Shown in pieces: positions 2,004-56,365 of a stretch of 64,000 nt of DNA (position 1 is the first letter of the stretch; each line of letters opens with the position of its first letter). The DNA comes from Panopea generosa (Eukaryota; Mollusca; Bivalvia; Adapedonta; Hiatellidae), in the NCBI GenBank assembly GCA_029582155.1, contig CM055903.1, positions 39,787,353 to 39,851,352 of the forward strand, written 5' to 3'. The notes under the pieces are model-generated. The model was not told where the DNA came from. It worked only from the letters and a program-made list of their open reading frames with translations, and did no database searches. A program made the position numbers and the translations under genes.

Positions 2004-5000
2004 CCATTCATGTTATACAGACAGGGCACCTACCAGATGTAGAACTATCATCTAAGTGCTGAGTACTCGAGTATCATACAGCAGACACATCCGTTCATGT
2101 TATACAGACCACGCACCTACCAGATGTAGAACTATCATCTAAGTGCTGAGTGCTCGAGTATCATACAGCAGACACATCCTTTCATATTATACAGACCGGG
2201 CACCTACCAGATGTAGAACTATCATCTAAGTGCTGAGTACTCGAGTATCATACAGCAGACACATCCGTTCATGTTATACAGACTGGGCACCTACCAGATG
2301 TAGAACTATCATCTAAGTGCTGAGTACTCGAGTATCATACAGCAGACACATCCGTTCATATTAAACAGACTGGGCACCTACCAGATGTAGAACTACCATC
2401 TAAGTGCTGAGTACTCGAGTATCATACAGCAGACACATCCGTTCATGTTATACAGACCGGGCACCTACCAGATGTAGAACTATCATCTTAGTGCTGAGTA
2501 CTCGAGTATCATACAGCAGACACATCCGTTCATGTTATACAGACCGGGTACCTACCAGAAGTAGAACTATCATCTTAGTGCTGAGTACTCGAGTACAATA
2601 CAGCAGACACATCCGTTCATATTATACAGACCGGGCACCTACCAGATGTAGAACTATCATCTAAGTGCTGAGTACTCGAGTATCATACAGCAGACACATC
2701 CGTTCATATTATACAGACCGGGCACCTACCAGATGTAGAACTATCATCTAAGTGCTGAGTACTCGAGTATCATACAGCAGACACATCCGTTCATGTTATA
2801 CAGACCACGCACCTACCGGATGTAGAACTATCATCTAAGTGCTGAGTACTCGAGTATCATGCAGCAGACACATCCGTTCATGTTATACAGACCGGGCACC
2901 TACCAGATGTAGAACTATCATCTAAGTGCTGAGTACTCGAGTATCATGCAGCAGACACATCCGTTCATGTTATACAGTCCGGGCACGTACCAGATGTAGA
3001 ACTATCATCTAAGTGCTGAATACTCGAGTATCATACAGCAGACACATCTGTTCATGTTATATAGACCGGGCACCTACCAGATGTAGAACTATCATCTAAG
3101 TGCTGAGTACTCGAATATCATACAGCAGACACATCCGTTCATATTATACAGACCGGGCACCTACCAGATGTAGAACTATCATCTAAGTGCTGAGTACTCG
3201 AGTATCATACAGCAGACACATCCATTCATATTATACAGACCGGGCACCTATCAGATGTAGAACTATCCTCTAAGTGCTGAGTACTCGAGTATCATACAGC
3301 AGATACCAGATGTAGAACTATCATCTATGTGCTGAGTACTCGAGTATCATACAGCAGACACATACGTCCATATTTTACAGACCGGGCACCTACCAGATGT
3401 AGAGCTATCATCTAAGTGCTGAGTACTCGATTATCATACAGCAGACACTCCGATCATGTTATACAGACCGGGCACCTACCAGATGTAGAACTATCATCTA
3501 AATGCTGAGTACTCGAGTATCATACAGCAGACACATCCGTTCATGTTATACAGACCGGGCACCTACCAGATGTAGAACTATCATCTAAGTGCTGAGTACT
3601 CGAGTATCATACAGCAGACACTCCATTCATGTTATACAGACCGGGCACCTACCAGATGTAGAACTATCATCTAAATGCTGAGTACTCGAGTATCATACAG
3701 CAGACACTACGATCATGTTATACAGACCGGGCACCTACCAGACGTAGAACTATCTTCTAAGTGCTGAGTACTCGAGTATCATACAGCAGACACATCCGTT
3801 CATGTTATACAGACCGGGCACCTACCAGACGTAGAACTATCATCTAAGTGCTGAGTACTCGAGTATCATACAGCAGACACATCCGTTCATGTTATACAGA
3901 CCGGGCACCTACCAGATGTAGAACTATCATCTAAGTGCTGAGTACTCGAGTATCATACAGCAGACACATCCGTTCATGTTATACAGACCGGGCACCTACT
4001 AGATGTAGAACTATCATCTAAGTGCTGAGTACTCGAGTATCATACAGCAGACACATCCGTTCATGTTATACAGACCGGGCACCTACCTGATGTAGAACTA
4101 TCATCTAAGTGCTGAGTACTCGAGTATCATACAGCAGACACATCCGTTCATGTTATACAGACCGGGCACCTAACAGATGTAGAACTATCATCTAAGTGCT
4201 GAGTACTCGAGTATCATACAGCAGACACATCCGTTCATGTTATACAGACCGGGCACCTACCAGACGTAGAACTATCATCTAAGTGCTGAGTACTCGAGTA
4301 TCATACAGCAGACACATCCGTTCATGTTATACAGACCGGGCACCTACCAGATGTAGAACTATTATCTAGGTGCTGAGTACTCGAGTATCGTACAGCAGAC
4401 ACATCCGTTCATGTTATACAGACCGGGCACCTAACAGATGTAGAACTATCATCTAAGTGCTGAGTACTCGAGTATCATACAGCAGACACATCCGTTCATG
4501 TTATACAGACCGGGCACCTACCAGACATAGAACTATCATCTAAGTGCTGAGTACTCGAGTATCATACAGCAGACACATCCGTTCATGTTATACAGACCGG
4601 GCATCTACCAGACGTAGAATTATCATCTAAGTGCTGAGTACTCGAGTATCATACAGCACACACATCCGTTCATGTTATACAGACCGGGCATCTACCAGAC
4701 GTAGAACTATCATCTAAGAGCTGAGTACTCGATTATCATACAGCAGACACATCCGTTCATGTTATACAGACCGGGCACCTACCAGACGTAAAACTATCAT
4801 CTAAGTGCTGAGTACTCGAGTACCATACAGCAGACACATCCGTTCATGTTATACAGACCGGGCACCTACCAGACGTAGAACTATCATCTAAGTGCTGAGT
4901 ACTCGAGTATCATACAGCAGACACATCCGTTCATGTTATACAGACCGAGCACCTACCAGATGTAGAACTATCATCTAAGTGCTGAGTACTCGAGTATCAT

Positions 5001-5593
5001 ACAGCAGACACATCCGTTCATATTATACAGACCGGGCACCTACCAGATGTAGAACTATCATCTAAGTGCTGAGTACTCGAGTATCATACAGCAGATACAT
5101 CCGTTCATGTTATACAGACCACGCACCCATCAGACGTAGAACTATCATCTAAATGCTGAGTACTCGAGTATCATACAGCAGACACATCCGTTCATGTTAT
5201 ACAGACTGGGCACCTACCAGATGTAGAACTATCATCTAAGTGCTGAGTACTCGAGTATCATGCAGCAGACACATCCGTTCATGTTATACAGACCGGGCAC
5301 CTACCAGACGTAAAACTATCATCTAAATGCTGAGTACTCGAGTATCATACAGCAGACACATCCGTTCATGTTATACAGACTGGGCACCTACCAGATGTAG
5401 AACTATCATCTAAGTGCTGAGTACTCGAGTATCATGCAGCAGACACATCCGTTCATATTATACAGACCGGGCACCTACCAGATGTAGAACTATCATCTAA
5501 GTGCTGAGTACTCGAGTATCATACAGCAGACACATCCGTTCATGTTATACAGACCACGCACCTACCAGATGTAGAACTATCATCTAAGTGCTG

Positions 5594-6985
5594 AGTACTC
5601 GAGTATCATACAGCAGACACATCCGTTCATATTATACAGACCGGGCACCTACCAGATGTAGAACTATCATCTAAGTGCTGAGTACTCGAGTATCATACAG
5701 CAGACACATCCGTTCATGTTATACAGACTGGGCACCTACCAGATGTAGAACTATCATCTAAGTGCTGAGTACTTGAGTATCATACAGCAGACACATCCGT
5801 TCATATTAAACAGACTGGGCACCTACCAGATGTAGAACTACCATCTAAGTGCTGAGTACTCGAGTATCATACAGCAGACACATCCGTTCATGTTATACAG
5901 ACCGGGCACCTACCAGATGTAGAACTATCATCTTAGTGCTGAGTACTCGAGTATCATACAGCAGACACATCCGTTCATGTTATACAGACCGGGTACCTAC
6001 CAGATGTAGAACTATCATCTTAGTGCTGAGTACTCGAGTATCATACAGCAGACACATCCGTTTATATTATACAGACCGGGCACCTACCAGATGTAGAACT
6101 ATCATCTAAGTGCTGAGTACTCGAGTATCATACAGCAGACACATCCGTTCATATTATACAGACCGGGCACCTACCAGATGTAGAACTATCATCTAAGTGC
6201 TGAGTACTCGAGTATCATACAGCAGACACATCCGTTCATGTTATACAGACCGGGCACCTACCAGATGTAGAACTATCCTCTAAGTGCTGAGTACTCGAGT
6301 ATCATACAGCAGACACATCCGTTCATATTATACAGACCGGGCACCTACCAGATGTAGAACTATCATCTAAGTGCTGAGTACTCGAGTATCATACAGCAGA
6401 CACATCCGTTCATGTTATACAGACTGGGCACCTACCAGATGTAGAACTATCATCTAAGTGCTGAGTACTTGAGTATCATACAGCAGACACATCCGTTCAT
6501 ATTAAACAGACTGGGCACCTACCAGATGTAGAACTACCATCTAAGTGCTGAGTACTCGAGTATCATACAGCAGACACATCCGTTCATGTTATACAGACCG
6601 GGCACCTACCAGATGTAGAACTATCATCTTAGTGCTGAGTACTCGAGTATCATACAGCAGACACATCCGTTCATGTTATACAGACCGGGTACCTACCAGA
6701 TGTAGAACTATCATCTTAGTGCTGAGTACTCGAGTATCATACAGCAGACACATCCGTTTATATTATACAGACCGGGCACCTACCAGATGTAGAACTATCA
6801 TCTAAGTGCTGAGTACTCGAGTATCATACAGCAGACACATCCGTTCATATTATACAGACCGGGCACCTACCAGATGTAGAACTATCATCTAAGTGCTGAG
6901 TACTCGAGTATCATACAGCAGACACATCCGTTCATGTTATACAGACCGGGCACCTACCAGATGTAGAACTATCCTCTAAGTGCTG
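5594..6985. repeat. Tandem 696-bp higher-order duplication (8 x 87 bp)
   Basis: An eight-unit block with diagnostic variants (attaaacag, acttgag, two successive catcttag, tttatatt, ctatcctc) occurs at about 5594-6289 and again at about 6290-6985. The acttgag variant at 5771 recurs at 6467, exactly 696 bp on. A related block with the same order of variants occurs near 2345-2670. Confidence 0.8.
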
Positions 6986-7335
6986 AGTACTCGAGTATCA
7001 TACAGCAGACACATCCGTTCATATTATACAGACAGGGCACCTACCAGATGTAGAACTATCATCTAAGTGCTGAGTACTCGAGTATCATGCAGCAGACACA
7101 TCCGTTCATGTTATACAGACCGGGCACCTACCAGATGTAGAACTATCATCTAAGTGCTGAGTACTCGAGTATCATACAGCAGACACATCCGTTCATATTA
7201 TACAGACCGGGCACCTACCAGATGTAGAACTATCATCTAAGTGCTGAGTACTCGAGTATCATACAGCAGACACATCCGTTCATGTTATACAGACCGGGCA
7301 CATACCAGATGTAGAACTATCCTCTAAATGCTGAG

Positions 7336-7450
7336 CGTCAAGAGGCAAAGCTTATTGTACCATTTTTAAGATACTGGTATGATCCGACCGGCGATCGAAT
7401 CCACAACCTTCCACATGCGAGAGAGTGTGTAAGAGGCGTGTTTTTTTCTG
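7336..7450 (-). mobile_element. tRNA-derived SINE fragment at the edge of the 87-bp satellite
   Basis: Read on the minus strand, this matches the SINE at 57520-57675: a degenerate B-box-like gattcgatcgccgg, then ggatcataccag, aaaaatggtac and gacgctcagcattta, in the same order and spacing. The match continues across 7335 into the satellite (tagttctac, atct). The A-box side is not clear. No target duplication is visible, because the 3' side has been converted to satellite. Confidence 0.7.
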
Positions 7451-7743
7451 ACCCGTTTACCAAATTTACCTTACGGATGCAACATATTAACGGTATATCG
7501 TTGTTGCATATATAAGTAAAAAACGATACATTGGTGTGTGTCAATAAACAGTCCTGAGATATCAGCTTACAAGTAACGAGCAAAATTTACGGCAGCCCAT
7601 TCAGGAGTACGCATGCACTTAATTTGCTCGTGGCACATGTAAGTTCAGTTCATATCTCATGAACGTCTAACAAAAATAATGAATTCATTAAATATGTAAT
7701 ACGTCACCTATAACTTTGTGTTCAGTACCATGTAAACAAAATT
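7451..7743. other. Intergenic sequence, no feature recognised
   Basis: No gene or repeat recognised. An 81-codon minus-strand frame at 7338-7583 runs through the SINE fragment and is not credible. Confidence 0.4.
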
Positions 7744-8222: not shown

Positions 8223-8231
8223 GCTAAACAG
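8223..8231 (+). repeat. Left target-site duplication of the foldback element
   Basis: The 9-mer gctaaacag lies directly before the left arm and recurs at 21399-21407 directly after the right arm. Both copies are followed by at, so the duplication could be scored as 9 or 11 bp. Confidence 0.8.
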
Positions 8232-8540
8232 ATGACTGTAAAGTTAGTAGGTAGTTCGCAGTTGGTAGTTGGGGATTCGAATAACCAACTACCGACCAGC
8301 TGCCAGTTGGGGATTCGGAATCGTTATTATAATTACTATTTCATTTACATATTTTACTCGTGTTAATATGTTTAAAAATATAATCAATAACAAATGTATG
8401 TAAATTAATATAAAATCTGAATCCCCAACTGGCAGCTGGTTGGTAGTTGGCGATTCACGGCGAATCCCCAACTGAACATTTTGAATCGCCGTCTGGTGAG
8501 TATACTCAATTTATTGAAGAACCAACACGGCCAAAGTGTG
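8232..8540 (+). repeat. Left terminal inverted repeat of the foldback element
   Basis: Pairs with 21090-21398 with only a few mismatches over about 309 bp (for example tgttaat against tgtttat, and cacgg against cccgg). It includes a unique AT-rich stretch, 8325-8415, that does not occur in the internal tandem units, so the terminus is distinct from the subrepeats. Confidence 0.85.
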
Positions 8541-11500
8541 TTATTTATTATTATTAATTTATTTTTAATTGAATTGATTGATTAAAAAAATAAAACAACA
8601 ATTTATAAAAAATCCGAATCCCCAACTGGCAACTGGTTGGTAGTTGGCGATTCGATTCGCCGCGAATCGCCAACTGGAAATTTTGAATCGCTTCCTGGTG
8701 AATATACTCATGGTATTGAAAGAAAAACGCGGGAACGGTGTTTATTTATTGTTATGAGCTGTTTTTCTATGAAACTGATTTGTTTTAAAAAACAAATATC
8801 GATTTGAACAAAAAAAAAATGAATTCCAAATTTGCCATTGTGAATCACCGTATTGTGAGTATATCCGTTTTATTGAAGAACCAAACCACCATTGGTGTTA
8901 TTATTATCCTAAATCTGTTTTCTTTATTGAATTGATATGTTAAAATAATAAAACAGCGATTTAAAAAAAAAATCCGAATCCCCAACTGGCAGCTGGTTGG
9001 TAGTTGGCGATTCGCGGCGAATCCCCAACTGGACATTTTGAATCACCATCTGGTGAGTATATTCATTATATTGAAGAACCAACCCGGCAAAAGTGTGTTA
9101 TTTATTATTATTAACTTATTTTTAATTGAATTGATTGATTAAAAAAATAAAACAACGATTTCAAAAAAAATCCGAATCCCCAACTGGCAACTGGTTGGTA
9201 GTTGGCGATTCGCCGCGAATCCCCAACTGAAAATTTTGAATCGTCTCCTGGTGAATATACTCATGGTATTGAAGGAACAGCGCGGGAACGGTGTTTATTT
9301 ATTGTTATGAACTGTTTTTCTATGGAACTGATTCGTTTTCAAAAACAAATATCGATTTGGAAAAAAAACGAATTCCAAATTTGCCATTTTGAATCACCGT
9401 ATTGTGAGTATATTCGTTCTATTGAAGAACTAAACCACCATTGGTGTTATTATTATCATGAATCTGTTTTTTTTATTGAATTGATATGTTAAAATAATAA
9501 AACAGCTGTTTAAAAAAAAAATCTGAATCCCCAACTGGCAACTAGTTGGTAGTTGGCGATTCGCCGCGAATCCCCAACTGGACATTTTGAATCACCGTCT
9601 GATGAGTATACTCATTATATTGAAGAACCATCCCGGCAAAAGTGTGTTATTTATTATTATCAATTCATTTTTAATTGAATTGAATTATTACAAAAATAAA
9701 ACAACGATTTAAAAAAAATCCGAATCCCCAACTGGCAACTGGTTGGTAGTTGGCGAGTCGCCGCGAATCCCCAACTGGAAATTTTGAATCGCTTTCTGGT
9801 GAATATACTCATGGTATTGAAGGAACAGTGCGGGACCGGTGTTTATTTATTGTTATGAACTGTTTTTCTATAGAATTGATTTGTTTTCGAAAACAAATAT
9901 CGATTTGAAAAAAATCCGATTCCATAATGGGCCATTTTGAATCACCGTATTGTGAGTATATCCGTTTTATTGAAGAACCAAACCACCATTGGTGTTATTG
10001 TTATCCTAAATCTGTTTTCTTTATTAAATTGATATGTTAAAATAATAAAACAGCGATTTAAAAAAAAAATCTGAATCCCCAACTGGCAGCTAGTTGGTAG
10101 TTGGCGATTCGCCGCGAATCCCCAACTGGACATTTTGAATCGCCGTCTGGTGAGTATACTCATTTTATTGAAGAACCAACCCGGCAAAAGTGTGTTATTT
10201 ATTATTATAAACTTATTTTTAATTGAATTGATTGATTAAAAAAATAAAACAACGATTTCAAAAAAAATCCGAATCCCCAACTGGCAACTGGTTGGTAGTT
10301 GGCGATTCGCCGCGAATCCCCAACTGGAAATTTTGAATCGCCTCCTGGTGAATATACTGATGGTATTGAAGGAACAGCGCGGGAACGGTGTTTATTTATT
10401 GTTGTGAACTGTTTTTCTATGGAACTGATTCGTTTTCAAAAACAAATATTGATTTGGAAAAAAAACGAATTCCAAATTTGCCATTTTGAATCACCGTATT
10501 GTGAGTATATTCGTTCTATTGAAGAACTAAACCACCATTGGTGTTATTATTATCATGAATCTGTTTTTTTTATTGAATTGATATGTTAAAATAATAAAAC
10601 GGCTGTTAAAAAAAAAAATCCGAATCCCCAACTGGCAGCTAGTTGGTAATTGGCGATTCGCCGCGAATCCCCAACTGGACATTTTGAATCACCGTCTGGT
10701 GAGTATACTCATTATATTGAAGAACCATCCCGGCAAAAGTGTGTTATTTATTATCATAAACTCATTTTTAATTGAATTGAATTATTACAAAAATAAAACA
10801 ACGATTTTAAAAAAAATCCGAATCCCCAACTGGCAACTGGTTGGTAGTTGGCGATTCGCCGCGAATCCCCGACTGGAAATTTTGAATCGCTTTCTGGTGA
10901 ATATACTCATGGTATTGAAGGAACAGTGCGGGAACGGTGTTTATTTATTGTTATGAACTGTTTTTCTATAGAATCGATTTGTTTTCGAAAACAAATATCG
11001 ATTTGAAAAAAATCCGATTCCATCATTGGCCATTTTGTATCACCGTATTGTGAGTATATCCGTTTTATTGAAGAACCAAACCACCATTGGTGTTATTATT
11101 ATCCTCAATCTGTTTTCTTTATTGAATTGATATGTTAAAATAATAAAACAGCGATTGAAAAAAAAAATCTGAATCCCCAACTGGCAGCTAGTTGGTAGTT
11201 GGCGATTCGCGGCGAATCCCCAACTGGACATTTTGAATCGCCGTCTGGTGAGTATACTCATTTTATTGAAGAACCAACCCGGCAAAAGTGTGTTATTTAT
11301 TATTATTAACTTATTTTTAATTGAATTGATTGATTAAAAAAATAAAACAACGATTTAAAAAAAATCCGAATCCCCAACTGGTAACTGGTTGGTAGTTGGC
11401 GATTCGCCGCGAATCCCCAACTGGATATTTTGAATCGCCTCCTGGTGAATATATTCATGGTATCGAAGGAACAGTGCGGGAACGGTGTTTATTTATTGTT

Positions 11501-14500
11501 ATGAACTGTTTTTCTATGGAAATGATTTGTTTTCAAAAACAAATATCGATTTGAAAAAAAAAAACGAATTCCAAATTTGATTTTGAATCAGCCTATTGTG
11601 ATTATATTCCTTCTATTGAAGAAACAAACCACCATTGGTGTTATTATTATCCTAAATCAGTTTTCTTTATTGAATTGATATGTTAAAAGAATAAAACAGC
11701 GATTTAAAAAAAAAATCCGAATCCCCAACTGGCAGCTAGTTGGTAGTTGGCGATTCGCCGCGAATCCCCAACTGGACATTTTGAATCGCCGTCTGGTGAA
11801 TATACTCATTTTATTGAAGAACCAACCCGGCAAATGTGTGTTATTTATTATTATAAACTGATTTTTAATTGAATTGATTGATTAAAAAAATAAAACAACG
11901 ATTTAAAAAAAATCCGAATCCCCAACTGGCAACTGGTTGGTAGTTGGCGATTCGCCGCGAATCCCCAACTGGAAATTTTGAATCGCCTCCTGGTGAATAT
12001 ATTCATGGTATCGAAGAAACAGAGCGGGAACGGTGTTTATTTATTGTTATGAACTGTTTTTCTATGGAAATGATTTGTTTTCAAAAACAAATATCGAGTT
12101 GAAAAAAAAAACGAATTCCAAATTTGATTTTGAATCACCGTATTGTGAGTATATTCCTTCTATTGAAGAAACAAACCACCATTGGTGTTATTGTTATCCT
12201 AAATCTGTTTTCTGTATTGAATTGATATGTTAAAATAATAAAACAGCGATTTAAAAAAAAAATACGAATCCCCAGCTGGCAGCTAGTTGGTAGTTGGCGA
12301 TTCGCCGCGAATCCACAACTGGACATTATGAATCGCCATCTGGTGAGTATACTCATTTTATTGAAGAACCAACCCGGCAAAAGTGTGTTATTTATTATTA
12401 TAAACTTATTTTTAATTGAATTGATTGATTAAAAAAATAAAACAACGATTTAAAAAAAATCCGAATCCCCAACTGGCAACTGGTTGGTAGTTGGCGATTC
12501 GCCGCGAATCCCCAACTGGAAATTTTGAATCGCCTCCTGGTTAATATATTCATGGTATCGAAGGAACAGTGCGGGAACGGTGTTTATTTATTGTTATGAA
12601 CTGTTTTTCTATGGAAATGATTTGTTTTCAAAAACAAATATCGATTTGAAAAAAAAAACGAATTCCAAATTTGATTTTGAATCACCGTATTGTGAGTATA
12701 TTCCTTCTATTGAAGAAACAAACCACCATTGGTGTTATTATTATCCTAAATCTGTTTTCTTTATTGAATTGATATGTTAAAATAATAAAACAGCGATTTA
12801 AAAAAAAAATCCGAATCCCCAACTGGCAGCTAGTTGGTAGTTGGCGATTCGCGGCGAATCCCCAACTGGACATTATGAATCGCCTTCGGGTGAGTATACT
12901 CATTTTATTGAAGAACCAACCCAGCAAAAGTGTGTTATTTATTATTATAAACTTATTTTTAATTGAATTGATTGATTAAAAAAATAAAACAACGATTTAA
13001 AAAAAATCCGAATCCCCAACTGGCAACTGGTTGGTAGTTGGCGATTCGCCGCGAATCCCCAACTGGAAATTTTGAATCGCCTCCTGGTGAATATATTCAT
13101 GGTATCGAAGGAACAGTGCGGGAACGGTGTTTATTTATTGTTATGAACTGTTTTTCTATGGAAATGATTTGTTTTCAAAAACAAATATCGATTTGAAAAA
13201 AAAAAAACGAATACCAAATTTGATTTTGAATCACCGTATTGTCAGTATATTCCTTCTATTGAAGAAACAAACCACCATTGATGTTATTATTATCCTAAAT
13301 CTGTTTTCTTTATTGAATTGATATGTTAAAAGAATAAAACAGCGATTTAAAAAAAAAATCCGAATCCCCAACTGGCAGCTAGTTGGTAGTTGACGATTCG
13401 CGGCGAATCCCCAACTGGACATTTTGAATCGCCGTCTGGTGAGTATACTCATTTTATTGAAGAACCAACCCGGCAAAAGTGTGTTATTTATTATTATAAA
13501 CTTATTTTTAATTGAATTGATTGATTAAAAAAATAAAACAACGATTTAAAAAAAATCCGAATCCCCAACTGGCAACTGGTTGGTAGTTGGCGATTCGCCG
13601 CGAATCCCCAACTGGAAATTTTGAATCGCCTCCTGGTTAATATATTCATGGTATCGAAGGAACAGTGCGGGAACGGTGTTTATTTATTGTTATGAACTGT
13701 TTTTCTATGGAAATGATTTGTTTTCAAAAACAAATATTGATTTGAAAAAAAAAACGAATTCCAAATTTGATTTTGAATCACCGTATTGTGAGTATATTCC
13801 TTCTATTGAAGAAACAAACCACCATTGGTGTTATTATTATCCTAAATCTGTTTTCTTTATTGAATTGATATGTTAAAATAATAAAACAGCGATTTAAAAA
13901 AAAAATCCGAATCCCCAACTGGCAGCTAGTTGGTAGTTGGCGATTCGCGGCGAATCCCCAACTGGACATTATGAATCGCCTTCGGGTGAGTATACTCATT
14001 TTATTGAAGAACCAACCCGGCAAAAGTGTGTTATTTATTATTATAAACTTATTTTTAATTGAATTGATTGATTAAAAAAATAAAACAACGATTTAAAAAA
14101 AATCCGAATCCCCAACTGGCAACTGGTTGGTAGTTGGCGATTCGCCGCGAATTCCCAACTGGAAATTTTGAATCGCCTCCTGGTGAATATATTCATGGTA
14201 TCGAAGGAACAGTGCGGGAACGGTGTTTATTTATTGTTATGAACTGTTTTTCTATGGAAATGATTTGTTTTCAAAAACAAATATCGATTTGAAAAAAAAA
14301 AAACGAATACCAAATTTGATTTTGAATCACCGTATTGTCAGTATATTCCTTCTATTGAAGAAACAAACCACCATTGATGTTATTATTATCCTAAATCTGT
14401 TTTCTTTATTGAATTGATATGTTAAAAGAATAAAACAGCGATTTAAAAAAAAAATCCGAATCCCCAACTGGCAGCTAGTTGGTAGTTGGCGATTCGCGGC

Positions 14501-16480
14501 GAATCCCCAACTGGACATTTTGAATCGCCGTCTGGTGAGTATACTCATTTTATTGAAGAACCAACCCGGCAAAAGTGTGTTATTTATTATTATAAACTTA
14601 TTTTTAATTGAATTGATTGATTAAAAAAATAAAACAACGATTTAAAAAAAATCCGAATCCCCAACTGGCAACTGGTTGGTAGTTGGCGATTCGCCGCGAA
14701 TCCCCAACTGGAAATTTTGAATCGCCTCCTGGTTAATATATTCATGGTATCGAAGGAACAGTGCGGGAACGGTGTTTATTTATTGTTATGAACTGTTTTT
14801 CTATGGAAATGATTTGTTTTCAAAAACAAATATCGATTTGAAAAAAAAAACGAATTCCAAATTTGATTTTGAATCACCGTATTGTGAGTATATTCCTTCT
14901 ATTGAAGAAACAAACCACCATTGGTGTTATTATTATCCTAAATCTGTTTTCTTTATTGAATTGATATGTTAAAATAATAAAACAGCGATTTAAAAAAAAA
15001 ATCCGAATCCCCAACTGGCAGCTAGTTGGTAGTTGGCGATTCGCCGCGAATCCCCAACTGGACATTATGAATCGCCTTCGGGTGAGTATACTCATTTTAT
15101 TGAAGAACCAACCCGGCAAAAGTGTGTTATTTATTATTATAAACTTATTTTTAATTGAATTGATTGATTAAAAAAATAAAACAACGATTTAAAAAAAATC
15201 CGAATCCCCAACTGGCAACTGGTTGGTAGTTGGCGATTCGCCGCGAATTCCCAACTGGAAATTTTGAATCGCCTCCTGGTGAATATATTCATGGTATCGA
15301 AGGAACAGTGCGGGAACGGTGTTTATTTATTGTTATGAACTGTTTTTCTATGGAATTGATTTGTTTTCAAAAACAAATATCGATTTGATAAAAAAAACGA
15401 ATCCCAAATTTGCCATTTTGAATCACCGTCTTGTGAGTATATTCGTTTTATTGAAGAAACAAACCACCATTGGTGTTATTATTATCCTAAATCTGTTTTC
15501 TTTATTGAATTGATATGTTAAAATAATAAAACAACGATTTAAAAAAAATCCGAATCCCCAACTGGCAACTGGTTGGTAGTTGGCGATTCGCCGCGAATCC
15601 CCAACTGGAAATTTTGAATCGCCTCCTGGTGAATATATTCATGGTATCGAAGGAACAGTGCGGGAACGGTGTTTATTTATTGTTATGAACTGTTTTTCTA
15701 TGGAAATGATTTGTTTTCAAAAACAAATATCGATTTGAAAAAAAAAACGAATTCCAAATTTGATTTTGAATCACCGTTTTGTGAGTATATTCCTTCTATT
15801 GAAGAAACAAACCACCATTGGTGTTATTATTATCCTAAATCTGTTTTCTTTATTGAATACATCTGTTGAAATAATAAAACAGCGATTTAAAAAAAAAATC
15901 CGAATCCCCAACTGGCAATTGGTTGTTAGTTGGCGATTCGCGGTGAATCCATAACTGGACATTTTGAATCGCCGTCTGGTGAGTATACTCGTTATTTTGA
16001 AGAACCAACTCTGCAAAAGTGTGTTTTTTTATTATCATAAACTTATTTTTAATTGAATTGATTGAATAAAGAAATAAAACAACGATTTTTAAAAAATCCG
16101 AATCCCCAACTGGCAACTGGATGGTAGTTGACGATTCGCCGCGAATCCCCAACTGGAAATTTTGAATCGCCTCCTGGTGAATATACTCACGGTATTACAT
16201 GAACAGCGCGGGAATGGTGTTTATTTATTGTTATGAACTGTTTTTCTATGAAATTGATTTGTTTTCAAAAACAAATATCGATTTGAAAAAAAAAAAGAAT
16301 TCCAAATTTGTCATTTTGAATCACCGTATTGTGAGTATATTCGTTTTATTGAACGACCAAACCAACCTCCATTGGTGTTATTATTATCCTAAATCTGTTT
16401 TCTTTATTGAATTGATATGTTAAATTAATAAAACTGCGATTTAAAAAAAATATTCGAATCCCCAACTGGCAGCTAGTTGG
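8541..16480 (+). repeat. Left-arm nested tandem array (547/549-bp units)
   Basis: Each unit contains three related modules beginning ttttgaatcgcctcc, ttttgaatcaccg and ttttgaatcgccgtc, spaced about 152, 198 and 197 bp apart. Between 12.0 and 15.3 kb the units alternate strictly between a 547-bp and a 549-bp type, giving an about 1096-bp dimer; 12580, 13676 and 14772 are equivalent positions. At 9.2-11.4 kb the period is about 1097 bp with more diverged modules. Frames of 64-96 codons recur in each unit on both strands and are treated as by-products of the repeat. Confidence 0.9.
15850..16152. repeat. Inner paired segment of the left arm
   Basis: A distinctive diverged stretch here reappears in reverse complement at 17801-18064 and beyond, so the inner symmetry axis lies near 16,976, while the outer ends give an axis near 14,815. 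The difference means the left arm carries several extra tandem units. Confidence 0.7.
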
Positions 16481-17470
16481 TAAATTTTGCGGTAATCGTA
16501 TCTTCTACGAAAAAAGAGGTCAATGAATATAGTACTAACTACCAAACAGCTCCCAGTTGGGGATTCGGATTTTTTTAAATCGATGTTTTATTATTTCAAG
16601 GAATCAATTCAATAGAAAAAGAGCTTAAAATAATAAAAAAGACACCAGGACCGCACAATATAAAGAGTATACTTACCAGACGGCGATTCAAAATGGCTAG
16701 TTGGGGATTCGCGGCGAATCACCTACCACCAACCAGCTGCAAGTTGTGGATTCGGATTTTGTTTTAAAATCACTTTTTTATTATTTTAATCAATCAATTC
16801 AATAAATAAACAAGACCATTCACACGTTGTTCGTTCAATACCATGAGTATATTCATCAGGAGGCGGTTTAAAATTTCCCCAAACTAGCAATCAGCTGCCA
16901 TTTGGGGATTCGGATTATTTTTTTCAGATCCATATATGTTTAAAAAAAACAATTAGTTCTATAGAAAAACAATTGAAAATAACAAATAAACAACATTCCA
17001 GCGTTGTTCCTTCAAAACCATGAGTATATTCATCAGGAGGCGATTCAAAATTTCTAGTTGAGGATTCGCGGCGAATCGCCAACTACCAAACAGCTGTCAG
17101 TTGGGGATTCGGATTTTTTTTAAATCGTTGTTTTATGATTTTAATAATTCAATTCAATTAAAAATAAGTTTATAATAATAAATAACACACTTTGGCCGGG
17201 TTGCTTCTTCAATAAAATGAGTATACTCACCAGACGGCGATTCAAAATGTCCAGTTGGTGATTCGCGGCGAATCGCCAACTACCAACCAGTTGCCAGTTG
17301 GGGATTCGGATTTTTTTTAAATCGTTGTTTTATAATCTTAATCAATCAATTCAATTAAAAATAAGTTTATAATAACAAATAACACAATTTTGCCGGGTTA
17401 GTTCTTTAATATAATGAGTATACTCACCAGACGGCGATTCAAAATGTCCAATTGGGGATTCGCCGCGAAT
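16481..17470. other. Unpaired centre of the foldback element
   Basis: About 58 nt at 16481-16538 match neither arm. The sequence from 16539 to 17470 holds degenerate right-orientation modules with no partner on the left. No open frame resembles a transposase. This is the place where an autonomous relative would carry its gene. Confidence 0.6.
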
Positions 17471-20400
17471 CGCCAACTAGCTGCCAGTTGGGGATTCGAA
17501 TTTTATTTAAAATCGTAGTTTTATTAATTTAACATATCAATTCAATAAAGAAAACAGATTTAGGATAATAATAACACCAATGGAGGTTGGTTTGGTCGTT
17601 CAATAAAACGAATATACTCACAATACGGTGATTCAAAATGGCAAATTTGGAATTCTTTTTTTTTTTTCAAATCGATATTTGTTTTTGAAAACAAATCAAT
17701 TTCATAGAAAAACAGTTCATAACAATAAATAAACACCATTAACGCGCTGTTCCTGTAATACCGTGAGTATATTCACCAGGAGGCGATTCAAAATTTCCAG
17801 TTGGGGATTCGCGGCGAATCGTCAACTACCATCCAGTTGCCAGTTGGGGATTCGGATTTTTTAAAAATCGTTATTTTATTTCTTTATTCAATCAATTCAA
17901 TTAAAAATAAGTTTATGATAATAAAAAACACACTTTTGCAGAGTTGGTTCTTCAAAATAACGAGTATACTCACCAGACGGCGATTCAAAAAGTCCAGTTG
18001 GGGATTCACCGCGAATCGCCAACTAACAACCAATTGCCAGTTGGGGATTCGGATTTTTTTTTAAAATCGCTGTTTTATTATTTTAACAAATCAATTCAAT
18101 AAAGAAAACAGGTTAAGGATAATAATAACACCAATGGTGGTTTGTTTCTTCAATAAAACGAATATACTCACAAGACGGTGATTCAAAATGGCAAATTTGG
18201 GATTCGTTTTTTTTATCAAATCGATATTTGTTTTTGAAAACAAATCATTTCCATAGAAAAACAGTTCATAACAATAAATAAACACCGTTCTCGCACTGTT
18301 CCTTCGATACCATGAATATATTCACCAGGAGGCGATTCAAAATTTCCAGTTGGGGATTCGCGGCGAATCGCCAACTACCAACCAGTTGCCAGTTGGGGAT
18401 TCGGATTTTTTTTAAATCGTTGTTTTATTTTTTTAATCAATCAATTCAATTAAAAATAAGTTTATAATAATAAATAACACACTTTTGCCGGGTTGGTTCT
18501 TCAATAAAATGAGTATACTCACCCGAAGGCGATTCATAATGTCCAGTTGGGGATTCGCCGCGAATCGCCAACTACCAACTAGCTGCCAGTTGGGGATTCG
18601 GATTTTTTTTTTAAATCGCTGTTTTATTATTTTAACATATCAATTCAATAAAGAAAACAGATTTAGGATAATAATAACACCAATGGTGGTTTGTTTCTTC
18701 AATAAAACGAATATACTCACAAGACGGTGATTCAAAATGGCAAATTTGGGATTCGTTTTTTTTATCAAATCGATATTTGTTTTTGAAAACAAATCAATTC
18801 CATAGAAAAACAGTTCATAACAATAAATAAACACCGTTCCCGCACTGTTCCTTCGATACCATGAATATATTCACCAGGAGGCGATTCAAAATTTCCAGTT
18901 GGGGATTCGCGGCGAATCGCCAACTACCAACCAGTTGCCAGTTGGGGATTCGGATTTTTTTTAAATCGTTGTTTTATTTTTTTAATCAATCAATTCAATT
19001 AAAAATAAGTTTATAATAATAAATAACACACTTTTGCCGGGTTGGTTCTTCAATAAAATGAGTATACTCACCCGAAGGCGATTCATAATGTCCAGTTGGG
19101 GATTCGCGGCGAATCGCCAACTACCAACTAGCTGCCAGTTGGGGATTCGGATTTTTTTTTTAAATCGCTGTTTTATTATTTTAACATATCAATTCAATAA
19201 AGAAAACAGATTTAGGATAATAATAACACCAATGGTGGTTTGGTTCTTCAATAAAACGGATATACTCACAATACGGTGATTCAAAATGGCCAATTATGGA
19301 ATCGGATTTTTTTCAAATCGATATTTGTTTTCGAAAACAAATCAATTCTATAGAAAAACAGTTCATAACAATAAACAAACACCGTTCCCGCACTGTTCCT
19401 TCAATACCATGAGTATATTCACCAGAAAGCGATTCAAATTTTCCAGTTGGGGATTCGCGGCGAATCGCCAACTACCAACCAGTTGCCAGTTGGTGATTCG
19501 GATTTTTTTTAAATCGTTGTTTTATTTTTGTAATAAATCAATTCAATTAAAAATAAGTTTATAATAATAAATAACACACTTTTGCCGGGTTTGTTCTTCA
19601 ATATAATGAGTATACTCACCAGACGGTGATTCATAATGTCCAGTTGGGGATTCGCCGCGAATCGCCAACTACCAACTAGCTGCCAGTTGGGGATTCAGAT
19701 TTTTTTTTTTAAATCGCTGTTTTATTATTTTAACATATCAATTCAATAAAGAAAACAGATTTAGGATAATAATAACACCAATGGTGGTTTGGTTCTTCAA
19801 TAAAACGGATATACTCACAATACGGTGATTCAAAATGGCCAATAATGGAATCGGATTTTTTTCAAATCGATATTTGTTTTCGAAAACAAATCGATTCTAT
19901 AGAAAAACAGTTCATAACAATAAATAAACACCGTTCCCGCACTGTTCCTTCAATACCATGAGTATATTCACCAGAAAGCGATTCAAAATTTCCAGTTGGG
20001 GATTCGCGGCGAATCGACAACTACCAACCAGTTGCCAGTTGGGGATTCGGATTTTGTTTAAATCGTTGTTTTATTTTTGTAATAATTCAATTCAATTAAA
20101 AATGAGTTTATGATAATAAATAACACACTTTTGCCGGGATGGTTCTTCAATATAATGAGTATACTCACCAAACGGTGATTCAAAATGTCCAGTTGGGGAT
20201 TCGCGGCGAATCGCCAATTACCAACTAGCTGCCAGTTGGGGATTCGGATTTTTTTTTTAAACGGCTGTTTTATTATTTTAACATATCAATTCAATAAAAA
20301 AAACAGATTCATGATAATAATAACACCAATGGTGGTTTAGTTCTTCAATAGAACGAATATACACACAATACGGTGATTCAAAATGGCAAATTTGGAATTC

Positions 20401-21089
20401 GTTTTTTTTCCAAATCGATATTTGTTTTTGAAAACGAATCATTTCCATAGAAAAACAGTTCATAACAATAAATAAACACCGTTCCTGCGCTGTTCCTTCA
20501 ATACCATGAGTATATTCACCAGGAGGCGATTCAAAATTTCCAGTTGGGGATTCGCGGCGAATCGCCAACTACCAACCAGTTGCCAGTTGGGGATTCGGAT
20601 TTTTTTTGAAATCGTTGTTTTATTTTTTTAATCAATCAATTCAATTAAAAATAAGTTTATAATAATAAATAACACACTTTTGCCGGGTTGGTTCTTCAAT
20701 AAAATGAGTATACTCACCAGACGGCGATTCAAAATGTCCAGTTGGGGATTCGCCGCGAATCGCCAACTACCAACTAGCTGCCAGTTGGGGATTCAGATTT
20801 TTTTTTTAAATCGCTGTTTTATTATTTTAACATATCAATTCAATAAAGAAAACAGATTTAGGATAATAATAACACCAATGGTGGTTTGGTTCTTCAATAA
20901 AACGGATATACTCACAATACGGTGATTCAAAATGGCCAATTATGGAATCGGATTTTTTTCAAATCGATATTTGTTTTCGAAAACAAATCAATTCTATAGA
21001 AAAACAGTTCATAACAATAAATAAACACCGTTCCCGCACTGTTCCTTCAATACCATGAGTATATTCACCAGAAAGCGATTCAAAATTTC
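17471..21089 (-). repeat. Right-arm nested tandem array, inverted relative to the left arm
   Basis: The same modules as the left arm in reverse complement. Equivalent positions occur at 18485 and 19034 (549 bp apart) and at 20680 (three units further). The stretch shows fewer copies than the left arm, and more diverged copies towards the centre. Confidence 0.9.
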
Positions 21090-21398
21090 CACACTTTGGC
21101 CGGGTTGGTTCTTCAATAAAATGAGTATACTCACCAGACGGCGATTCAAAATGTTCAGTTGGGGATTCGCCGTGAATCGCCAACTACCAACCAGCTGCCA
21201 GTTGGGGATTCAGATTTTATATTAATTTACATACATTTGTTATTGATTATATTTTTAAACATATAAACACGAGTAAAATATGTAAATGAAATAGTAATTA
21301 TAATAACGATTCCGAATCCCCAACTGGCAGCTGGTCGGTAGTTGGTTATTCGAATCCCCAACTACCAACTGCGAACTACCTACTAACTTTACAGTCAT
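21090..21398 (-). repeat. Right terminal inverted repeat of the foldback element
   Basis: Reverse complement of 8232-8540, ending ctttacagtcat next to the 9-bp target duplication. Confidence 0.85.
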
Positions 21399-21407
21399 GC
21401 TAAACAG
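21399..21407 (+). repeat. Right target-site duplication of the foldback element
   Basis: The 9-mer gctaaacag is identical to 8223-8231. Confidence 0.8.
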
Positions 21408-34860: not shown

Positions 34861-36000
34861 CTGCATAATACTACTTCGTCATGGTGACGTGCTATACATT
34901 TGGTGTGCTTCTCGTATACTGAATATATAAAAGTTAACTAGTCAGGACGTGCTAAACATTTGGTGTGCTTCTCGTTTACTAAATATATTATAGTAAACTA
35001 GTCAGGACGTGTTATACACTTGGTGTGCCTCTCGTATACTGAATATATAATAGTAAACTAGTCAGGACGTGCTATACACTTGATGTGCTTCTCGTATACT
35101 GAATATATAATAGTAATCTAGTCAGGGCGTGTTATACACTTGGTGTGCCTCTCGTATACAGAATATATAATAGTAAACTAGTCAGGACATGTTATACACA
35201 TGGTGTGTCTCTCGTATATTGAATATATAATAATAAACTAGTCAGGACATGTTATACACTTAGTGTGCCTCTCGTATATTGAATATATAATAGTAAACTA
35301 GTCAGGACGTGTTATACACTTGGTGTGCCTCTCGTATACTGAATATATAACAGTAAACTAGTCAGGACGTGTTATACACTTGGTGTGCCTCTCGTATACT
35401 GAATATATAATAATAAACTAGTCAGGACGTGCTATACACTTGATGTGCTTCTCGTATACTGAATATATAATAGCAAACTAGTCAGGTCGTGTTATACATA
35501 TGGTGTGCCTCTCGTATACTGAATATATAATAGTTAACTAGTCAGGACATGTTATACACTTGGTGTGCTTCTCGTATACCGAATATATAATAGTTAACTA
35601 GTCAGGGCGTGTTAAACACTTGGTTTGCTTCTTGTATACCGAATATATAATAGTAAACTAGTCAGGACGTGTTATACACTTGGTGTGCTTCTCGTATATT
35701 GAATATATAATACTAAACTAGTCAGGGCGTGATATACACTTGGTATGCTTCTCGTATACTGAATATATAATAGTAAACTAGTCAGATCCTGTTATACACT
35801 TGGTGTGCTTCTTGTATACTGAATATATAATAGTCAACTAGTCAGGACATGTTATACACTTGGTGTGCTTCTCGTATACCGAATATATAATAGTAAACTA
35901 GTCAGGACGTGTTATACACTTTGTGTGCTTCACGTATACTAAATATATAATAGTAAACTAGTCAGGGCGTGTAATACACTTGATGTGCTTCTCGTATACT

Positions 36001-36840
36001 GAATATATAATAGTAAACTAGTCAGGACGTGTTATACACTTGGCGTGCTTCTCGTATGCTGAATATATAATAGTAAACTAGTCAGGACGTGTTATTCACT
36101 CGGTATGCTTCTCGTATACTGAATATATAATAGTTAACTAGTCAGGACGTGCTATACACTTTATGTGCTTCTCGTATACTGAATATATAATAGCAAACTA
36201 GTCAGGGCATGCTAGACAGTTGGTGTACTTCTCGTATACTGAATATATAATAGTAAACTAGTCAGGACGTGATATACACTTGGTGCACTTCTCGTATACT
36301 GAATATATAATAGTTAACTAGTCAGGACATGTTATACACTTGGTGTGCTTCTCGTATACTAAATATATAATAGTAAACTAGTCAGGACGTGTTATACACT
36401 TGGTTTGCTTCTTGTATACCGAATATATAATAGTAAACTAGTCAGGACGTGTTATACACTTGGCGTGCTTCTCGTATGCTGAATATATAATAGTAAACTA
36501 GTCAGGACGTGTTATTCACTCGGTATGCTTCTCGTATACTGAATATATAATAGTTAACTAGTCAGGACGTGCTATACACTTTATGTGCTTCTCGTATACT
36601 GAATATATAATAGCAAACTAGTCAGGGCATGCTAGACAGTTGGTGTACTTCTCGTATACTGAATATATAATAGTAAACTAGTCAGGACGTGATATACACT
36701 TGGTGCACTTCTCGTATACTGAATATATAATAGTTAACTAGTCAGGACATGTTATACACTTGGTGTGCTTCTCGTATACTAAATATATAATAGTAAACTA
36801 GTCAGGACGTGTTATACACTTGGTTTGCTTCTTGTATACC
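36001..36840. repeat. Tandem 420-bp (7-unit) duplication in the 60-bp array
   Basis: The block 36001-36420 is repeated at 36421-36840 with the same variants in order (cgtatgct, cactcggta, ctttatgtg, gctagacagt, ggtgcactt), essentially identical apart from the last units. Confidence 0.85.
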
Positions 36841-39789
36841 GAATATATAATAGTAAACTAGTCAGGACGTGTTATACACTTGGTGTGCTTCTCATATACT
36901 GAATATATAATAGTAAACTAGTCAGGACGTGTTAAACACTTGGTTTGCTTCTTGTATACCGAATATATAATAGTAAACTAGTCAGGACGTGTTAAACACT
37001 TAGTTTGCTTCTTGTATACTGAATATATAATAGTAAACTAGTCAGGACGTGTTATACACTCGGTGTGCTTCTCGTATACTGAATATATAATAGTAAACTA
37101 GTCAGGACGTGCTATAGACTCTGTGTGCCTCTCGTATACCGAATATATAATAGTTAACTAGTCAGGACATGTTATACACTTGGTTTGCTTCTCATATACT
37201 GAATATATAAGAGTAAACTAGTCAGGACGTGCTATACATTTGGTTTGCTTCTTGTATACCGAATATATAATAGTAAACTAGTCAGGGCGTGTTAAACACT
37301 TGGTTTGCTTCTTGTATACCGAATATATAATAGTTAACTAGTCGGGGCGTGTTAAACACTTGGTTTGCTTCTTGTATACCGAATATATAATAGTAAACTA
37401 GTCAGGACGTGTTATACACTTGGTGTGCTTCTCGTATATTGAATATATAATAGTAAACTAGTCAGGGCGTGATAAACACTTGGTATGCTTCTTGTATACT
37501 GAATATATAATAGTAAACTAGTCAGAGCCTGTTATACACTTGGTGTGCTTCTTGTATACTGAATATATAATAGTAAACTAGTCAGGACATGTTATATACT
37601 TGGTGTGCTTCTCGTATACCGAATATATAATAGTAAACTAGTCAGGACGTGTTATACACTTGGTGTGCTTCACGTATACTGAATATATAATAGTAAACTA
37701 GTCAGGGCGTGTTATACACTTGATGTGCTTCTCGTATACTGAATATATAATAGTAAACTAGTCAGGACGTGTTATACACATGGTGTGTCTCTCGTATACT
37801 GAATATATAATAGTAAACTAGTCAGGACGTGCTATACACTTGATGTGCTTCTCGTATACTAAATATATAATAGTAAACTAGTCAGGACGTGTTATACACT
37901 TGGCGTGCTTCTCGTATGCTGAATAAATAATAGTAAACTAGTCAGGACGTGTTATACACTCGGTATGCTTCTCGTATACTGAATATATAATAGTTAACTA
38001 GTCAGGACGTGTTATACACTTGGTATGCTTCTCGTATATTGAATTTATAATAGTAAACAAGTCAGGACATGTTATACACTTGGTGTGCCTCTCGTATACT
38101 GAATATATAACAGTAAACTAGTCAGGACGTGCTATACACTTCATGTGCTTCTCGTATACTGAATATATAATAGCAAACTAGTCAGGGCATGCTAGACAGT
38201 TGGTGAGCTTCTCGTATACGGAATATATAATAGTAAACTAGTCAGGACGTGATATACACTTGGTGCACTTCTCGTATACTGAATATATAATAGTTAACTA
38301 GTCAGGACATGTTATACACTTGGTGTGCTTCTCGTATACTAAATATATAATAGTAAACTAGTCAGGACGTGTTATCGCTTGGTTTGCTTCTTGTATACCG
38401 AATATATAATAGTAAACTAGTCAGGACGTGTTATACACTTGGTGTGCTTCTCGTATACTGAATATATAATAGCAAACTAGTCAGGGCATGCTAGACAGTT
38501 GGTGTACTTCTCGTATACTGAATATATAATAGTAAACTAGTCAGGACGTGATATACACTTGGTGCACTTCTCGTATACTGAATATATAATAGTTAACTAG
38601 TCAGGACATGTTATACACTTGGTGTGCTTCTCGTATACTAAATATATAATAGTAAACTAGTCAGGACGTGTTATACACTTGGTTTGCTTCTTGTATACCG
38701 AATATATAATAGTAAACTAGTCAGGACGTGTTATACACTTGGTGTGCTTCTCATATACTGAATATATAATAGTAAACTAGTCAGGACGTGTTAAACACTT
38801 GGTTTGCTTCTTGTATACCGAATATATAATAGTAAACTAGTCAGGACGTGTTAAACACTTAGTTTGCTTCTTGTATACTGAATATATAATAGTAAACTAG
38901 TCAGGACGTGTTATACACTCGGTGTGCTTCTCGTATACTGAATATATAATAGTAAACTAGTCAGGACGTGCTATAGACTCTGTGTGCCTCTCGTATACCG
39001 AATATATAATAGTTAACTAGTCAGGACATGTTATACACTTGGTTTGCTTCTCATATACTGAATATATAATAGTAAACTAGTCAGGACGTGCTATACATTT
39101 GGTTTGCTTCTTGTATACCGAATATATAATAGTAAACTAGTCAGGGCGTGTTAAACACTTGGTTTGCTTCTTGTATACCGAATATATAATAGTTAACTAG
39201 TCGGGGCGTGTTAAACACTTGGTTTGCTTCTTGTATACCGAATATATAATAGTAAACTAGTCAGGACGTGTTATACACTTGGTGTGCTTCTCGTATATTG
39301 AATATATAATAGTAAACTAGTCAGGGCGTGATAAACACTTGGTATGCTTCTTGTATACTGAATATATAATAGTAAACTAGTCAGAGCCTGTTATACACTT
39401 GGTGTGCTTCTTGTATACTGAATATATAATAGTAAACTAGTCAGGACATGTTATATACTTGGTGTGCTTCTCGTATACCGAATATATAATAGTAAACTAG
39501 TCAGGACGTGTTATACACTTGGTGTGCTTCACGTATACTGAATATATAATAGTAAACTAGTCAGGGCGTGTTATACACTTGATGTGCTTCTCGTATACTG
39601 AATATATAATAGTAAACTAGTCAGGACGTGTTATACACATGGTGTGTCTCTCGTATACTGAATATATAATAGTAAACTAGTCAGGACGTGCTATACACTT
39701 GATGTGCTTCTCGTATACTAAATATATAATAGTAAACTAGTCAGGACGTGTTATACACTTGGCGTGCTTCTCGTATGCTGAATAAATAA
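36601..39789. repeat. 1.3-kb duplication in the 60-bp array (offset 1859 bp)
   Basis: The unit series at about 36601-37930 reappears at about 38460-39789 in the same order, including gactctgtgtgcc, gtcggggcg and gaataaataatag variants. Confidence 0.8.
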
Positions 39790-40679
39790 TAGTAAACTAG
39801 TCAGGACGTGTTAAACACTTGGTTTGCTTCTTGTATACCGAATATATAATAGTAAACTAGTCAGGACGTGTTAAACACTTGGTTTGCTTCTTGTATACCG
39901 AATATATAATAGTAAACTAGTCAGGACGTGTTATACAATTGGTGTGCTTCTTGTATACTGAATATATAATAGTAAACTAGTCAAGACGTGCTATAGACTC
40001 TGTGTGCCTCTCGTACACTGAATATATAATAGTTAACTAGTCAGGACATGTTATACACTTAGGTTGCTTCTCGTATACTGAATATATAATAGTAAACTAG
40101 TCAGGACGTGCTATACATTTGGTTTGCTTCTTGTATACCCAATATATAATAGTAAACTAGTCAGGACGTGTTATACAATTGGTATGCTTCTCGTATACTT
40201 AATAAATAATAGTAAACTAGTCAGGGCATGTTGTACACTTGGTGTACCTCTCGTATATCGAATATATAATAGTAAACTAGTCAGGACGTGTTGTACACTT
40301 GGTGTGCCTCTCGTATACTGAATATATAATAGTAAACTAGTCAGGACGTGTTATACAGTTGGTGTGCTTCTCGTATACCGAATATATAATAGTAAACTAG
40401 TTAAATCGTGTTATACAATTGGTGTCGTTCTCGTATACTAAATATAATAGTAAACTAGTCAGGACGTGTTATACACTTGGTGTGCCTCTCGTATACCGAA
40501 TATATAATAGTAAACTACCCAGGGCGTGCTATACACTTGGTGTGCCTCTCGTATATTGAATATATAATAATAAACTAGTCAGAACATGATATACACTTGG
40601 TGTGCTTCTCGTATACCGAATATATAATAATAAACTAGTCAGGACGTGTTATACACTTGGTGTGCTTCTCGTATACTGA

Positions 40680-43677: not shown

Positions 43678-44514
43678 TACTGAATATATAATAGTAAACT
43701 AGTCAGGACGTGTTATACACTTGGTGTGCTTCTTGTATACCGAATATATAATAGTAAACTAGTCAAATCGTGTTATACAATTGGTGTCGTTCTCGTATAC
43801 TGAATATATAATAGTAAACTAGTCAGGACGTGTTATACACTTGGTGTGCCTCTCGTATACCGAATATATAATAGTAAACTACCCAGGGCGTGCTATACAC
43901 TTGGTGTGCCTCTCGTATACTGAATATATAATAATAAACTAGTCAGAACATGATATACACTTGGTGTGCTTCTCGTATACCGAATATATAATAATAAACT
44001 AGTCAGGACGTGTTATACACTTGGTGTGCTTCTCGTATACTGAATATATAATAGTAAACTAGTCAGGGCGTGTTAAACACTTGGTTTGCTTCTTGTATAC
44101 CGAATATATAATAGTAAACTAGTCAGGGCGTGTTGTACACTTGGTGTGCCTCTCTTATACCGAATATATAATAGTAAACTACCCAAGGCGTGCTATACAC
44201 TTGGTGTGCTTCTCGTATACTGATTATATAATAACAAACTAGTCATAACATGATATACACTTGGTATGCTTCTCGAATACCGAATACATAATAGTAAACT
44301 AGTCAGGACGTGATAAACACTTGGTGTGCTTCTCGTATACCGAATATATAGTAATAAACTAGTCAGAGCATGTTATACACTTGGTGTGCTTCTCGTATAT
44401 TGAATATATAATAGTTAACTAGTCAGGACGTGCTATACACTTGGTATGCTTCTCGTATACCGAATGTATAATAGTAAACTAGTCAGGACATGTTATACAC
44501 TTGGTGCGCTTTTC

Positions 44515-56235: not shown

Positions 56236-56365
56236 TACACAAGACACGGAGTATTCAAAAAAAGACAGCGCGTCATAAGAACACACGAGTAACTGGTCTA
56301 GAATTGTAAACGCTATCATTCCGGTATACTCTTACTGTGGAACTAAATGATTTTGTTCTTACCAG

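Follow-up and report, generated by a model that had tools for sequence, protein, structure and literature searches.

Within the window (the whole stretch of 64,000 nucleotides analysed, G000:C10:39787353-39851352, from a genome of 1.474 Gb in 39 contigs) lies a complete element of 13,167 bp, at positions 8232-21398, bounded on both sides by exact 9-bp direct repeats of gctaaacag. Its parts, in window coordinates, are as follows.

8223-8231, no strand: left target-site duplication (TSD), gctaaacag, 9 bp, exact duplicate at the right junction
8232-8540, plus strand: left terminal inverted repeat, 309 bp, tip ATGACTGTAAAGTTAGTAGG, three mismatches against the right end
8541-16481, plus strand: left arm, about 15 tandem units of ~549 bp (self-comparison and unit alignment)
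16482-16535, no strand: stub of the middle domain, 54 bp, ~96% identical to one middle edge in copies S2 (on contig C15) and F14
16536-21089, minus strand: right arm, about seven ~549-bp units, reversed and in mirror order relative to the left arm (unit alignment)
21090-21398, minus strand: right terminal inverted repeat, 309 bp (ungapped end comparison)
21399-21407, no strand: right TSD, gctaaacag, 9 bp, exact duplicate at the left junction

An ungapped comparison of the two ends gave three mismatches, at offsets 133, 277 and 295, and similarity collapsed past 309 bp, so that the boundary of the terminal repeats is exact. The earlier note on this DNA had described positions 8223-21407 as a complete 13.2-kb foldback element with its TSD, the outer 309 bp of whose ends are near-identical, and these coordinates proved correct to the base. 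The self-comparison that it had proposed recovered both the inverted arms, in matching stretches as long as 1,259 bp with 97% identity, and the opposite-facing tandem arrays that it had reported: units of ~549 bp run on the plus strand at 8412-16440 (about 15 units, the first of which starts inside the terminal repeat, at 8412) and on the minus strand at 16800-20950 (about seven units). The tip-like motif TAGTTGG[G/C]GATTC occurs 41 times on the two strands of the element (27 + 14), compared with a mean of 0.0 in 50 single-base shuffles. The claim that the element lacks a coding region was also borne out, in that we found none within it: stop-to-stop frames of at least 90 amino acids peak at 124, and the one repeat-unit frame scanned has no Pfam match. 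Rfam gave 0 matches across the window.

The internal order of the arms was obtained by aligning 20 long unit matches out of 22, the other two, which are partial, being excluded. In the left arm, outer units of types a-b-c-b-c are followed by an expanded type d in the middle and by inner types e and f. Units are paired across the arms by position; the innermost right unit is 98% identical to the innermost left unit, and the pairs R04-L13, R02-L05 and R01-L04 share 100% (rounded), 99% and 99% identity, respectively, and the difference between adjacent units in one arm can reach 8-9%. The extra units L06-L12 form an expansion private to the left arm; within it the pairs L09-L11 and L10-L12 are each about 100% identical, a pattern that points to a two-unit duplication step. 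Long inverted repeats are difficult to assemble, and the whole might be taken for a misassembled palindrome, but the arms are not perfect mirrors, their paired units being 97-100% identical and the left arm having its own expansion, and a like architecture recurs on many contigs with differing flanks and TSDs; we therefore regard an assembly artefact as extremely improbable.

When the left end was used as a query against the genome, all 40 of the places scored, out of 1970 candidates and with the window's own two included, matched over the full length at 98-100%. A 23-bp tip pattern, allowing up to two mismatches, was found 419 times in the forward and 405 times in the reverse orientation, giving 824 tips or, very roughly, 400 element-equivalents, and the reversed pattern used as a control gave 0 and 0. 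Copies for study were taken in two sets. The first comprised 14 copies from the left-end list, nine two-ended and five one-ended (one of which revealed a second end), and, being drawn from the best-scoring ends, is biased towards close relatives; the second comprised 17, namely all further inverted pairs less than 20 kb apart among the 100 exact tips listed (contigs C1-C4). For S1, S2, S3 and S5, the second end lies outside the 10 kb taken, and these copies were excluded from the TSD count. Thirteen more single-ended places among the 40 scored lie outside the copy set, one of which, on C12, was partly read (L050). The resulting 28 two-ended copies, including that in the window, range in length from 581 to 15,881 bp.

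Two of the copies have foreign or additional sequence associated with them. Exterior to E6 (L015, about G000:C1:410797-410868), there is a second inverted tip fragment, 92% identical over the first 72 bp, which points either to an older copy or to inter-copy recombination. Copy S3 (L026:3772-6767) contains a non-LTR reverse-transcriptase-like frame with, by eye, an FADD motif, in sequence unlike the arms, and this stretch is probably a nested insertion.

Across the 28 two-ended copies, the 9-bp duplication was exact in 19, had one mismatch in five and two mismatches in one (F16), and the flanks of E10, F8 and F10 differed at five to seven positions, leaving no recognisable duplication. Cross-paired flanks of different copies, used as a control, gave 0 exact duplications in 756 and 1 in 756 with one mismatch, and at the remaining lengths between 5 and 13 bp none of the 28 copies had an exact duplication. 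Recombination between copies would fit the missing duplications of E10, F8 and F10, although other events could also lie behind them. The earlier note had expected further copies with their own duplications and had allowed that the ends might occur at this locus alone; the 824 tips genome-wide, together with the 19 exact TSDs, confirm the expectation and dispose of the reservation.

Sequence corresponding to the target before insertion was recovered for some copies. E7, E9 and F17 interrupt tandem arrays, the imperfectly alike monomers of which continue across the insertion point with a single copy of the target, and the joined flanks of F3, which has one TSD mismatch, match all 40 places scored (from 64 candidates) with 96-99% identity across 179 of their 180 letters; by eye, this host repeat resembles a LINE gag zinc knuckle. 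These four copies were inserted into pre-existing sequence, and a single target is restored on their removal. The flanks of the window element are single-copy in the genome, and when joined they matched solely their own two flanks (two of two candidates), with no related empty site in the assembly. The empty-site check proposed in the earlier note was thus successful for F3, E7, E9 and F17, but not for the window copy itself.

Helitrons are not known to have long terminal inverted repeats or a TSD. The 309-bp inverted repeats and 9-bp duplications found here refute the suggestion that the element is a Helitron or Helentron bearing satellite repeats, to which we attach negligible probability, even though elements of that kind hold satellite-like arrays in the oyster Crassostrea gigas, according to the available part of that report (PMC7492417). 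A satellite array that was duplicated locally in inverted orientation, was never mobile and is flanked by a chance 9-bp repeat would agree with the satellite-like nature of the arms, and the accessible text on the Drosophila virilis element Tetris indicates that foldback repeats can seed satellites (PMC4079207), but such a history is refuted by the 824 tips, the exact TSDs in 19 of 28 copies and the empty sites, and we give it almost no credence.

Typing of the units in 32 copies (28 two-ended and four single-ended) against the window-derived types showed that the outer order a-b-c is kept in several long copies and that e or f lies beside the centre in several, with a variable number of d units between the outer and inner types; other copies depart from this order, and F16 has no unit of sufficient length for typing. 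Mean unit identity to the window types ranges, with the window copy excluded, from 82.7% (F8) to 97.3% (S5).

The divergence of the 309-bp ends was determined in 16 of the 28 copies, F7, F8, F9 and nine copies shorter than 3.9 kb being excluded. The median was 1.6% for the two ends of one copy and 1.9% for ends of different copies (480 pairs, range 0.3-6.8%). Such values would fit a fairly recent spread, although both the bias of the sample and conversion between arms could lower the divergence. The earlier note had taken the similarity of the arms as a mark of recent movement; alone, this is weak evidence, because conversion can keep mirror arms alike, and the 1.9% inter-copy median for those 16 copies is the stronger hint. 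The second set also includes older-looking copies: the two ends of F2 have 18 mismatches and those of F8 have 32.

The C15 copy has a unique middle of 2.3 kb, one edge of which is matched at 96-97% by the reversed centre of the window element (16482-16535). With that middle as a genome query (40 of 3583 candidates scored), the lengths measured from the common edge were 54 bp in the window, ~186 bp in F14, ~340 bp in four copies, 916, 1051, 1655 and 1744 bp in others, and 2,386 bp in C15 and C6. Outside this nested series, three places on C5 match the inner part 684-1035 alone, and short secondary middle pieces were also found, for example 349-465 at five places. At the two loci that were read with a match ending at 1744 (C4 and C12), the arm begins within a few bases, and we take these middles to be internal deletions. 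A different centre of 119 bp (M2) is present in E6, E10 and F12, and a search of the genome with it gave 11 places; in the C6 copy M2 lies 465 bp past the long middle and is therefore the other edge, making the fullest middle ~3.0 kb. The unique part extends 102 and 114 bp into the examined pieces of the C14 and C11 copies, respectively, before the arm begins, so that their middles are about 0.2 kb. By the search used, 701 bp of the C6 middle contained no arm sequence, and no frame of 70 amino acids or more. The 54-bp centre of the window element is the remaining stub of a middle domain whose fullest form, in one copy, measures ~3.0 kb, and the nested lengths are those expected to result from internal deletion in a once longer element.

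We found no transposase between the family's tips in the copies examined, and the copies therefore look non-autonomous; the hunt for an autonomous copy that the earlier note had called for, covering the middle, M2 and MULE loci, was similarly without success. The genome nevertheless has at least 134 matches to the MULE profile PF10551 (150 of 329 candidates scored). Of these places, 35 are on C1-C4, and none comes closer than 25.6 kb to an exact tip in the list of 100, which stops at C4:66.86 Mb with one of the 35 beyond it. Three of the 134 loci were read, one of them in part, and had inverted repeats of other sequence and no family tip; among the 35 MULE places, the 100 listed tips and the three loci, no MULE transposase lay between tips ATGACTGTAAAGTTAG. 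Armless relatives, sought with the 12-bp tip without the next T, showed no excess (338 compared with 341 in the control), and visual inspection of the 100 listed places revealed no inverted pair.

A separate observation was made at L052:1536-4821 (G000:C5:22581000-22588000), where a 444-amino-acid MULE transposase frame is situated between inverted tandem-repeat ends (GGGTGGACAAAAGATCCCA...) of sequence unlike the family's. By eye, no clear TSD was seen at this locus, which is likely to be a Mutator element with minisatellite ends; a MULE of this genome therefore bears tandem-repeat ends.

On the minus strand of the middle there is a 60-amino-acid frame that follows a splice-acceptor-like ATTTCAG and ends in GHFVSVFTFRGKNILYDGLK.... 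This exon-like frame (YIIFGITYGNGGHFVSVFTFRGKNILYDGLK...) lies on the minus strand of L025 at about 7310-7495 and also at C6:77649474-77649653; all 29 candidates in the genome were scored, and these two places, both family middles, are the only ones. It has no Pfam match and no PDB match, and it may resemble the histidine box of ubiquitin-protease-type domains. We mention as a speculative possibility, improbable on present evidence, that the ~3.0-kb C6 middle is the relic of an autonomous element carrying an intron-containing gene that ends in the GHFVSVFTFRGKNILYDGLK exon; because the frame is confined to the family's middles and is without a Pfam or PDB match, the family might then belong to an unrecognised transposase lineage with giant tandem-repeat ends.

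The copies have fixed tips, 9-bp TSDs and mirror tandem arms, with a variable number of units and nested middle lengths. Tandem-repeat inverted ends, a variable middle, a duplication of ~9 bp and many dispersed inserted copies are the structural hallmarks of foldback elements, and we conclude with high confidence that the window element belongs to a dispersed family of non-autonomous foldback-type DNA transposons; the recurring ends, their own duplications and the empty sites of other copies support the foldback reading put forward in the earlier note. We suggest that a transposase made elsewhere would recognise the tips and mobilise the copies in trans, the element being cut or copied and then reinserted with a 9-bp stagger. 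The internal copies of TAGTTGG[G/C]GATTC may act as extra transposase binding sites, by analogy with Galileo. Unequal exchange between 549-bp units, or their slippage, would lengthen and shorten the arms, and internal deletion may remove the middle domain, perhaps when gap repair between the two inverted arms aborts.

Our best guess for the mobiliser is a transposase of the Mutator superfamily, because 9 bp is typical of that superfamily, of which most foldbacks are believed to be members, and the 9-bp duplication lies within the 8-11 bp characteristic of Mutator elements. P and Galileo elements have TSDs of 7-8 bp. A transposase from outside the Mutator superfamily, either P/Galileo-like or unrecognised, is possible but less probable: Galileo has foldback-like arms and yet belongs to the P superfamily, as the available parts of two reports describe (PMC3573991, PMC3688188), no MULE transposase was present between the family's tips among the places checked, and the middle has an exon-like frame without a Pfam or PDB match. 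Against this, all 19 exact duplications are of 9 bp and 0 of the 28 copies have an exact one at 7 or 8 bp, and the genome contains the MULE matches described above, one of them in an element with tandem-repeat inverted ends of its own.

The FB elements of Drosophila melanogaster have long tandem-repeat inverted ends, a middle that is sometimes absent and a TSD of ~9 bp. The present family is like FB in architecture, with a unit of ~549 bp, the comparison being one of structure. The following comparisons draw on the accessible parts of the papers cited. The nearest in style is Tetris, a foldback with TIR-220 tandem repeats in its ends, TSDs of 8-10 bp and no autonomous copy in the portion of the report available (PMC4079207). 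Both have a variable middle without apparent coding, tandem repeats in inverted ends and no known transposase; the comparison is again one of structure, and the window copy differs in its ~7.9-kb left arm of 549-bp units (PMC4079207). In root-knot nematodes, Tm1 (Mutator/Foldback) has TSDs of 8-10 bp, mostly of 9 bp, at 45 of its 53 complete copies, and resembles the family in its composite inverted ends, its MITE-like to longer forms and the predominance of 9-bp duplications, but its repeats are of ~14 bp and some copies encode a Phantom-type Mutator transposase, whereas we found no transposase here (PMC3169594). Galileo, whose transposase was shown by gel shift to bind two repeat-borne sites (PMC3688188), has similarly long, internally repetitive inverted ends with possible secondary binding sites and a length that varies through unit number, but it is a member of the P superfamily with ends of up to ~1.25 kb in D. 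mojavensis, whereas the TSD found here is of 9 bp (PMC3573991, PMC3688188). MULE duplications are of 8-11 bp, and those of Rehavkus, a clade near Mutator, of 9 bp; like our family, Rehavkus has an internal minisatellite, but its ends measure 26-400 bp and its single ORF contains a PHD finger, and we saw no such ORF (PMC6446971).

The word 'foldback' does not occur in the examined text of a survey of bivalve transposons (PMC10294476), and no report of a mollusc foldback family was among the matches listed, as judged from titles and the starts of abstracts, with most subscription literature and Repbase outside that scope; several of the satellite papers among those matches do mention foldback. 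The family is a new one, of an established structural class, with large arms and a high copy number. Complete foldback copies are few in the systems compared, with three structurally complete copies in the accessible account of Tetris (PMC4079207) and the 53 of Tm1 (PMC3169594), against 28 two-ended copies and 824 tips here. Having hundreds of tips, and copies of 0.6-15.9 kb, in a single assembly makes arm growth and middle loss legible from sequence, and the family is also informative on how foldbacks might feed satellite DNA. It further suggests that such elements could be masked as ordinary tandem repeats during repeat annotation.

The surroundings of the element contain tandem arrays of other kinds. 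Adjoining 87-bp satellite arrays occupy window positions 2007-7335 and end about 0.9 kb from the element, and a 60-bp satellite array extends over 9.6 kb at 34886-44511 (about 160 copies, 89% matches). The array at 56363-57222, with periods of 58 and 114 bp, contains an open frame of 312 amino acids, which is probably fortuitous.
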